Source: an uncultured Bacilli bacterium (GTDB lineage: Bacteria > Bacillota_I > Bacilli_A > RF39 > UBA660). From it: a DNA stretch of 59,056 nt. Positions within the stretch are counted from its first letter, which is position 1, and the number at the start of each line of letters is the position of its first letter. Of this stretch, positions 7,668 to 10,412 are shown piece by piece. Position numbers and translations under genes: made by a program. The DNA lies in NCBI GenBank assembly GCA_947627675.1, contig CANQWY010000004.1, positions 1-59,056 of the forward strand, given 5' to 3'. The notes beneath the pieces were generated by a model that had not been told where the DNA came from, made no database searches, and saw only the letters and a program-made list of their open reading frames with translations.

Positions 7668-9242
7668 CAATGTCATCAGTTTAAGGAACTACATAAGAAA
7701 ATGTGTAGTTTTTATTATGTGTAAATGATAAAATGAATATATAGAATAAAAGGAGTTAAATTAGTGGTAAAATTTAATAAAGAAGGAATTGAATTAATTA
7801 GAACTAAAATAAATTCAGAAGAATTAAAAAATATAGGAAGGTTAACAACAAATAGTTTTACAAGAGAAAGAAAAATGGGATTTCAAAAACTAATGAAATA
7901 TATATTAAATAAGAAAGGGCTAAGTACAAATATGGAAATTAATAATTTTTATAATGATATAAATGAAGATGAAAATATATCGAATCAGTCATTGTTAGAT
8001 CAAAGATTAAAATTAAATCCTGATGTTTTTATATCGTTAAACAATGATTATTTAAAGTTGTTTTATCAAGAACATAAAGATGAAGTTAAATTATATAAAG
8101 GGTATTTATTAAAAGCAATAGATGGAAGTGATTTTGAAATACCAAACACGAAAGAAACAAAAGAAGTATATGGGAATGTTGGAACAAAAGTCAAAGATAA
8201 AGAAGATACTATAGCAAGAGCAACTATATCAACAAGTTATGATGTATTAAATAAATATATAATTGAAGGATTTATTTTACCATATAGAACAAGTGAAAAT
8301 AAAAGTGCATTAGAGCATATAAAACACGATCAAGAAATAACTTCAAATTATAATTCCATTTACATAATGGATAGAGGTTATATATCAATAGAGTTAATGC
8401 TTTATTGTTTAAAAAATAATATAAAATTTTTAATCAGATTAGATAGTACATCATATAAAAAAGAAAGAGAAAAAATAAAAACAAAAGACGAATACATTGA
8501 ATTAGAATATCATAATAACAGATTAAAGAGAAGACATTATCAAAGTGAAGAAATAAGACTTTATGCCAAAAAAATAAAATCATCAAAATTAAGAGTTGTA
8601 ACTAATGTATTAGATACTGGAGAAATAGAACAATTAATAACAAATTTAAGTACTGATGAATTTACATATGAAGATATTGTAGAATTATATAATAAAAGAT
8701 GGGGAATAGAAACATTATATTATAGTTTAAAATGGAAGTTGAAAACTGAAAAATTTACTAGCAGTTTTAAGATAATAATAGAACAAGATTTTTTCTCAAG
8801 CGTATTAGTATATAATATGATTCAATCTATGATAAAGGAGGCAGAAGAAAAAATAGAAAAGAAAAAATACAAGCATGAAATGACAATAAATGAAAATATA
8901 GCAGTTGGATTATTTAAAAATGAGATGATAAAAATAATGTTAGAAAAAGATGAAAATAATAGATTAAAAATGTATGATAAATTGATAGAAAAAATATGTA
9001 AATATAAAATACCCATTAGAAAAGATAGAAAATATAAGGTAAGATTTAGTCCTTATAACAAGAATAGTTATAATAAGTTAAGTAGTATTTAAATAAAAAT
9101 ATGAATGTTTTAAACATCAATAATTGTTGATGAGTTTTGTTATGGAACAAATTAGTTGAAATCTAAATTTATGAAAATTAAAACTACACAATTTCTTATG
9201 TAGTTCCTTAAACTGATGACATTGAGGAAGGAGTATGACAAC
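7668..9242 (+). mobile_element. IS4-like insertion sequence with ~44-bp inverted repeats (outer limits uncertain)
   Basis: left caatgtcatcagtttaaggaactacataagaaaatgtgtagttt is the near-perfect reverse complement of 9181-9224; transposase ORF between. Confidence 0.8.
7764..9092 (+). CDS. IS4-family DDE transposase
   Basis: AIDGSDFEIP, YIMDRGYIS, Y-NKRWGIETLYYSLKWKLKTEKFTS (DDE and YREK-like signature). Confidence 0.9.
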   Translation: MVKFNKEGIELIRTKINSEELKNIGRLTTNSFTRERKMGFQKLMKYILNKKGLSTNMEINNFYNDINEDENISNQSLLDQRLKLNPDVFISLNNDYLKLFYQEHKDEVKLYKGYLLKAIDGSDFEIPNTKETKEVYGNVGTKVKDKEDTIARATISTSYDVLNKYIIEGFILPYRTSENKSALEHIKHDQEITSNYNSIYIMDRGYISIELMLYCLKNNIKFLIRLDSTSYKKEREKIKTKDEYIELEYHNNRLKRRHYQSEEIRLYAKKIKSSKLRVVTNVLDTGEIEQLITNLSTDEFTYEDIVELYNKRWGIETLYYSLKWKLKTEKFTSSFKIIIEQDFFSSVLVYNMIQSMIKEAEEKIEKKKYKHEMTINENIAVGLFKNEMIKIMLEKDENNRLKMYDKLIEKICKYKIPIRKDRKYKVRFSPYNKNSYNKLSSI

Positions 9243-9243
9243 T

Positions 9244-9921
9244 TTATTTTATTAATCTTTTTTGTTTTTCTTGTTTGTATAAATATTCTTCTATATGTAT
9301 TTGATGATAGTTTGGATCGTATTTTTGTAAGTTGTTGAAAAAATCCATCATAAGAGCATTGAAAGGTTTATATCTACTACGAGCATTTCGTATTCTAATA
9401 CTTCTTAAATGAGGATATAAATCTTCATAATAAGTAAATTTTAATTTATAATATTCTCCTTCATTGCTAATTGTCATAGAATCAGCATTTTTATAGTCAA
9501 ATGAGACACTATCATCACTAATCCAAATAATTTTTTCATTATTAAAAACTTTTTTATATAATTCACTATTTTTTAAGTCTTGATTTGCTTCAAAAATTCG
9601 TGTATATAATCTTCTTTTTTCATTAATTTCACTACATTGTGACAAATCATAATCACTTACTTGAAATACATCTCCATTCTTAAATGATTTATATAATGTA
9701 TCAAATAAATTATAAATAAACATATTTTCTTTTGTTATAAAAAAATCGTTTTCTTGATTTTTATCAAAAGAAGAAAAATATAAATCTCCGTTATCACAAT
9801 ATATTATTCCTAACTTTTTATTGCTATCTATCAAATAATAATTATAAAATTCACTATCACTTATATTATTTCTTAATATCTTCAATATCATCACCTTCTT
9901 ATTGTTTTTGACAATATGCAA
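9244..9921 (-). CDS. hypothetical protein
   Basis: 225-aa ORF. Confidence 0.5.
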   Translation of the reverse strand: MHIVKNNKKVMILKILRNNISDSEFYNYYLIDSNKKLGIIYCDNGDLYFSSFDKNQENDFFITKENMFIYNLFDTLYKSFKNGDVFQVSDYDLSQCSEINEKRRLYTRIFEANQDLKNSELYKKVFNNEKIIWISDDSVSFDYKNADSMTISNEGEYYKLKFTYYEDLYPHLRSIRIRNARSRYKPFNALMMDFFNNLQKYDPNYHQIHIEEYLYKQEKQKRLIK

Positions 9922-10024
9922 GTGTGTTTTCTAAATTGTCATAAATTTAGTATCAAATTCTATTGTATAAAGAACAATCGTTTGATATAATTTTCATAGG
10001 GAATATTAGTTGTTGAGTGTCTAC

Positions 10025-10050
10025 CAAATCTCTTATAGAGAGGAGATTTG
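10025..10050 (+). promoter_or_regulatory. hairpin sequestering the Shine-Dalgarno of the 30-aa ORF
   Basis: CAAATCTC (10025-10032) pairs with GAGATTTG (10043-10050) and covers aggag; upstream TTGTAT-17-TATAAT at 9963-9991. Confidence 0.55.
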
Positions 10051-10056
10051 ATAAAG

Positions 10057-10149
10057 ATGAAAACTAAGACTTTTGTTATAAAAGTTCTAAAGCTCATTGC
10101 TATCATTTTATTTCTCCTTATCGTTATGATAGTAGTAATAAAAAAATGA
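10057..10149 (+). CDS. 30-aa hydrophobic peptide, candidate type I toxin
   Basis: MKTKTFVIKVLKLIAIILFLLIVMIVVIKK*; below the ORF-track length cutoff. Confidence 0.5.
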   Translation: MKTKTFVIKVLKLIAIILFLLIVMIVVIKK

Positions 10150-10192
10150 CACTTAATTCTTCATTGAATTAAATGTCTAAACAATATTAATT

Positions 10193-10236
10193 GGGTAGGC
10201 ATTCAACTCGCAAAAACTGAATGTTCCCTTTTTTAT
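10193..10236 (+). terminator. hairpin terminator downstream of the small peptide
   Basis: GGGtaggCATTCA...TGAATGttCCC followed by T6. Confidence 0.6.
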
Positions 10237-10336
10237 TTTATGCAAGTTTCCTTGACATATTCATAATAACATAAAAACGACTTTTTGACAAGTCGTTTTA
10301 TATTGTTACTCGAAAAGTCCGAGTTTCCTATCAATC

Positions 10337-10412
10337 TGGTGCCGACTATAGGACTTGAACCTACAACCTACGCGTTACGAGTGCGTTGCTCTACCAATTA
10401 AGCTAAGCCGGC
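10337..10412 (-). tRNA. tRNA-Thr (CGT)
   Basis: reverse strand GCCGGCT...ACGCA-CTCGTAA-CGCGT...GTAGGTTCAAGTCCTAT-AGTCGGCACCA; encoded CCA. Confidence 0.9.

Follow-up and report, generated by a model that had tools for sequence, protein, structure and literature searches.

A likely type I toxin-antitoxin module with a closed mRNA and a 3' antisense RNA in uncultured Bacilli

We found that a locus in a 59,056-nucleotide stretch of DNA from an uncultured Bacilli bacterium (the window, meaning the whole stretch analysed) is likely to be a type I toxin-antitoxin module, composed of a candidate membrane toxin, an mRNA predicted to be closed and a predicted antisense RNA at the 3' end. The module is larger than the span described in an earlier note on this DNA, and it has promoters at both ends (Table 1). 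The type I reading proposed in that note appears to be the best fit to the antisense promoter and terminator, the conservation within a family, the purifying selection and the compensatory changes described below. The promoters, the terminators, the selection on the coding region, the pairing of the 5' and 3' ends, the burial of the Shine-Dalgarno sequence (SD) and the copy number all draw support from the sequence and from comparison among copies. By its architecture, the module would represent a new family of type I loci, which the profile searches did not assign to any described toxin family. We see about an even chance that it stands for a large and so far undescribed type I superfamily of uncultured gut Bacilli. 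In such a superfamily, the antisense sequence would be built into the mRNA as its leader, giving a cis-lock in addition to a trans-antitoxin, and many paralogs, each with a private leader-tail-antisense code, would coexist within a genome.

Table 1. Predicted and observed features of the module and its neighbours in the window
Feature	Position	Strand	Details
Putative type I module copy	9963-10291		Promoters at both ends
Sense (toxin) promoter	9963-9991	+	TTGTAT-17-TATAAT; -35 9963-9968, -10 9986-9991
Predicted mRNA, ~238 nt	~9998-10236	+	Predicted start ~9998
Leader arm of long-distance interaction	9998-10025	+	Pairs with 10194-10229 (MFE fold)
SD-burying leader hairpin	10025-10050	+	CAAATCTC (10025-10032) complementary to GAGATTTG (10043-10050)
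SD	10041-10045	+	aggag
30-aa hydrophobic peptide, candidate type I toxin	10057-10149	+	MKTKTFVIKVLKLIAIILFLLIVMIVVIKK; ATG 10057 to TGA 10149
Toxin mRNA intrinsic terminator	10194-10235	+	Stem 10194-10229, T6 10230-10235; both arms are the leader's 3' partners
Antisense promoter	10263-10291	-	TTGTCA-17-TATTAT, extended -10; -35 10291-10286, -10 10268-10263, TG before -10
Predicted antisense RNA, ~117 nt	10140-10256	-	Start 10256-10258; covers toxin mRNA 3' UTR and last codons
Antisense 5' hairpin	10239-10258	-	CAAG-GAAA-CUUG; from fold and conservation
Antisense intrinsic terminator	10140-10177	-	12-bp stem 10177-10148, then T7
IS4-type DDE transposase (DDE_Tnp_1)	7764-9092		Neighbour of the element
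Unassigned 225-aa ORF	9244-9921	-	Directly upstream of the element
tRNA-Thr	10337-10412	-	Other flank of the element

The sense promoter was found as the earlier note had described it, and its -10 box and the TTG of its -35 box are conserved in a 43-copy alignment and in most of 105 copies. The complementarity of the leader over the aggag SD, claimed in the same note, is also present, and the SD is buried more deeply than in ordinary genes, with a mean unpaired probability of 0.20 (80 copies) compared with 0.48 (sd 0.21) for a set of 19 ordinary genes taken from the window. The 30-aa hydrophobic ORF and the terminator hairpin with its T6 run are likewise in place, and homologous peptides occur in most complete copies. 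Absent from the note was the prediction that, in the full-length mRNA, the 5' leader takes up each arm of the sense terminator as a pairing partner. The first 28 nt of the mRNA pair with its last ~36 nt in two blocks, 9998-10011 with 10215-10229 and 10012-10025 with 10194-10207. The predicted folding energy of the mRNA is -70.4 kcal/mol, whereas its dinucleotide shuffles average -38.2 kcal/mol (sd 5.1). This corresponds to a z of -6.3, and the median z across 80 copies is -7.8.

We analysed ~80 distinct copies of the element and used the 43-copy alignment for pair tests. The 28 leader-tail pairs showed standard pairing in 80.7% of the cells, compared with 38-56% in controls in which the partner columns were slid by 1-3, a percentage that is biased upward because the tested structure came from one member. 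The two-sided (compensatory) changes are stronger evidence, and they amounted to 87 cells, against 10-33 in the slid versions. In individual folds, 76 of 89 mRNAs had half or more (>=15) of their first 30 nt paired with the last 60 nt. Several of the 13 copies lacking the long-distance pairing are probably explained by the best-promoter assignment, which misplaced some sense promoters (for example, at TTTAAT boxes). The pairing of the mRNA ends is conserved through compensatory change, as expected of aapA- and hok-type loci with a closed mRNA. The pairing is also specific to the subfamily: a leader pairs with the tail of its own copy at -31 to -37 kcal/mol, depending on the subfamily, but with the tails of other subfamilies at -15 to -23 kcal/mol and with shuffled tails at -11.7 kcal/mol. 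RNAalifold on the whole 43-copy alignment returned a weak consensus (-6.3), probably due to misaligned columns at such divergence, and we used the fixed-pair tests and the per-copy folds instead.

The earlier note had reported no convincing antisense promoter, a statement that does not hold. A consensus scan for promoters and terminators covering 9940-10330 identified one promoter, on the minus strand. Shuffled sequence is expected to give 2.7 promoter matches; since such chance matches are common in AT-rich DNA, the argument for the antisense promoter rests on conservation. Of 77 copies, 72 carry the TTG of its -35 box at exactly this position, and at most 3 carry one at any other nearby position. 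The 77 copies were chosen by a pattern ending at 10272, and the TTG site falls outside this search pattern. Terminator-like sites, by the same scan, had a mean of 0.1 in the shuffles. The hairpin assigned to the 10150s-10180s in the note does exist, at 10148-10177, but its likeliest role is to terminate the antisense RNA rather than to structure the toxin 3' UTR. The U7 tail of this terminator is the complement of the A7 run at 10140-10146, which encodes the Lys-Lys codons of the toxin, and its stem covaries (the pair 10158-10167 is C-G in 23 copies and U-A in 16). All five peptide subfamilies have a hairpin after the ORF and 6-7 A in the preceding nine bases, which form the U-run of the minus strand. 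In the P30 subfamily (for example, L052, L054 and L060), the antisense terminator hairpin extends into the last codons of the peptide (KIVPTV), and each of the two therefore restricts the other. The GAAA-loop hairpin at the antisense 5' end lies beyond the end of the mRNA and is nearly invariant across the subfamilies. At the sequence level, the window thus contains an antisense gene complementary to the toxin mRNA, as expected of type I loci, and its direction from 10256 to 10140 on the minus strand converges on the plus-strand unit running from 9998 to 10236 with a 3' overlap, as in txpA/RatA.

The peptide has the small size (<60 aa), the hydrophobicity and the one membrane helix typical of type I toxins, with a best 19-residue GRAVY of 3.44 and a net charge of +6, located mainly at the N terminus. 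Most copies long enough to read contain an SD-preceded hydrophobic ORF of 24-34 aa. The family peptides are lysine-started, combine one strongly hydrophobic stretch with positive charge and fall into at least five subfamilies. The peptides of all five are under purifying selection, with dN/dS values of 0.42 for A30 (the window type, MKTKTF/MKKRTF...IKK), 0.15 for D29 (MKKKDLLISFL...), 0.19 for N27 (MNKKDFLI...), 0.12 for T25 (MTKREFSQFIIILLLF...) and 0.47 for P30 (MRKSEKYLCTIIILL...IKIVPTV); these NG86 values, calculated within subfamilies, are approximate given the few members in each and the sorting by simple text rules. A non-coding structured RNA in which the ORF arose by chance would account for the strong fold (z -6.3), but it is contradicted by this range of dN/dS (0.12-0.47) and by the SD and hydrophobic ORF in most complete copies, which leave it next to no probability. 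Searches with the peptide against Pfam, NCBIfam, PHROGs and PADLOC gave no family match, and the profile comparison with TxpA and BsrG, confined to Pfam and NCBIfam, gave none either. No described toxin or RNA family that could point to aapA or hok membership was matched in Pfam, NCBIfam, PHROGs, PADLOC or Rfam, and Rfam returned nothing relevant for the element at the gathering thresholds or at E<=1.

Using the 311 bp element as the query, we found that 29 of 60 relatives contain it; a single genome can have as many as 14 matches, and the window's own genome has four. Within the same family-level clade, the element occurs in 209 of 291 genomes (~70%) and in 115 of 150 genera, and the same plan is kept across dozens of diverged copies. 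Outside the clade, the 247 class-wide genomes gave a single strong match, and the remaining matches were marginal. This strong outside copy (L167, G462:C32:11731-12014) belongs to another family of the class and has 83% identity; it possibly reflects horizontal transfer, or else contamination or a binning error of the MAG. The conserved block was also found in named records of uncultured Bacilli, Tenericutes and similar MAGs, including a rabbit-looking "Lapin" series, Candidatus Onthousia, Ventrenecus and roe deer rumen, all of which we take to be RF39-like Bacilli. A small membrane peptide with a regulatory or structural role instead of a toxic one, for instance a modulator of a membrane enzyme, kept under tight control by the mRNA fold and the antisense RNA, would be consistent with the moderate to strong purifying selection, and single helices of ~30 aa are common among small membrane proteins; toxicity of the window peptide is itself presumed. 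We nevertheless consider such a function unlikely, because divergent paralogs within a genome, patchy sites, the lack of a linked family and double locks are typical of type I loci and unlike a housekeeping subunit.

The type I reading can be compared with several known systems. The aapA/IsoA loci of Helicobacter are likewise a multicopy chromosomal family with a small toxic peptide and a cis-overlapping antisense RNA, and their primary mRNA is inert through a 5'-3' long-distance interaction (PMC6733600). However, the SD of aapA is held by a 3' anti-SD within the long-distance interaction, whereas the SD in the window is buried by a leader hairpin adjoining it, and we saw no sequence relation between aapA/IsoA and the window family. 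IsoA overlaps the 5' region of aapA, whereas the antisense RNA in the window covers the 3' end. The hok/Sok system resembles the window in its stable full-length mRNA with paired ends, which is translationally inert and needs 3' processing, and 3' trimming opens the mRNA in both hok and aapA (PMC6733600). It differs in that a mok-type coupled leader ORF was not recognised in the window, that the window antisense RNA lies over the 3' end and that the peptides appear unrelated. The txpA/RatA, bsrG/SR4 and bsrE/SR5 systems of Bacillus, from the same class Bacilli, share a convergent antisense RNA at the 3' end, an SD in a short helix and a membrane peptide (PMC6562991). The TxpA peptide appears, from the Pfam and NCBIfam profile searches, to be unrelated to that of the window. 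It is also about twice as long. A review of the Bacillus systems reports that the SD is buried, mentions no mRNA closed from end to end and credits activation through processing of the mRNA to the systems of Gram-negative bacteria (PMC6562991). The type I modules of C. difficile with their RCd antitoxins also pair hydrophobic peptides with antisense RNA, but their toxins have 34-59 aa, lysine-rich C-terminal tails and mostly a prophage location (PMC6563280). The window peptide, in contrast, has 30 aa and an N-terminal charge, and its element gave no phage or plasmid match. The par/Fst locus of Enterococcus has a short membrane peptide and a convergent antisense RNA, as in the window, and its direct repeats let the antisense RNA also pair with the 5' leader. 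The leader in the window, unlike that of par, has the sense of the antisense RNA and pairs with the tail.

As far as sequence can tell, the window family appears to join a hok/aapA-like closure of the mRNA to a txpA/bsrG-like placement of the antisense RNA, which suggests that mRNA closure arose more than once. From this organization we infer transcription, antisense repression, an activation step and toxicity, and we propose the following mechanism. The ~238 nt mRNA would encode the 30-aa single-helix membrane peptide as the toxin. A first lock would be formed by the 5' end pairing with the arms of the 3' terminator, together with the leader hairpin hiding the SD, so that translation of the closed full-length mRNA is predicted to be poor or nil. 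The second lock would be the ~117 nt antisense RNA, made from its own strong promoter and fully complementary to the 3' region of the mRNA; its binding would most likely lead to RNase III cleavage and decay, by analogy with RatA on txpA (PMC6562991). Pairing with the tail makes the leader near-identical in sequence to the antisense RNA, and the two compete for one 3' target. Only mRNA that has been opened or processed and has escaped the antisense RNA would yield the peptide, which would then enter the membrane and stop growth. Removal of the 3' 50 nt in silico did not free the SD in A30, the window subfamily (unpaired probability from 0.21 to 0.24), nor in T25 and P30, and it freed the SD partly in D29 and N27 (0.24 to 0.40; 0.12 to 0.28). 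Because the SD mostly stays buried after trimming, a hok-like activation step is without support from the model.

Predicting type I systems is difficult, and reports of them come from few phyla (PMC12390103). The family described here is present in most of the sampled genomes of its clade of uncultured gut bacteria and carries no label in the protein- and RNA-family libraries searched, and we found no literature description of type I systems in RF39/Tenericutes in a search that covered mainly freely available papers. The ~100 natural variants constitute a dataset on the co-evolution of leader, tail and antisense RNA and on the insulation of paralogs.

Concerning the genomic context, no neighbour gene recurs, as any one neighbour family is common to at most 8 of 81 loci, which makes the element a stand-alone unit. 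The upstream 225-aa ORF had no match in Pfam or PADLOC. A prophage or plasmid origin is without support, since the viral, phage and plasmid collections gave no match to the element. The transposase and the element beside tRNA-Thr possibly belong to a genomic island. At three same-genus tRNA-Thr/YitT loci, in the 0.6-1.5 kb examined beyond the tRNA, the element was not seen, and the identity of 73-74% is too low for placing an insertion boundary. A MITE-like mobile or selfish repeat, in which the two promoters, pointing inward, would pass for terminal inverted repeats and the ORF would be incidental, would agree with this absence in three genomes, with the multiple matches per genome and with the IS4-type transposase adjoining the window copy. 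Such a repeat is very improbable, however, considering that homology stops at both promoters and not at terminal repeats, that dN/dS is below 0.5 in every subfamily, that the RNA structure shows compensatory changes and that peptide, leader and tail diverge jointly across the subfamilies, unlike in recent transposition. 

Several further observations concern the copies of this putative type I module. A perfect 10-bp inverted repeat, AAAACGACTT/AAGTCGTTTT, at 10274-10299 flanks the antisense -35 box and could be an operator or the terminator of tRNA-Thr; it is not clearly retained in other copies. Tandem or closely spaced copies occur in L015, L020, L024, L031, L041, L069 and L116. The neighbouring copies in L015 and L024 belong to different peptide subfamilies, and the L116 pair has identical peptides; known type I loci likewise show tandem copies and repeated paralogs. 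The block TTATGCAAGTTTCCTTGACATATTCATAATAACA (10238-10271) is near-invariant even though the peptides and leaders of the subfamilies differ, and the promoter and the GAAA hairpin account for this invariance only in part. The block possibly serves as a common site for a protein or as a place where recombination exchanges cassettes.
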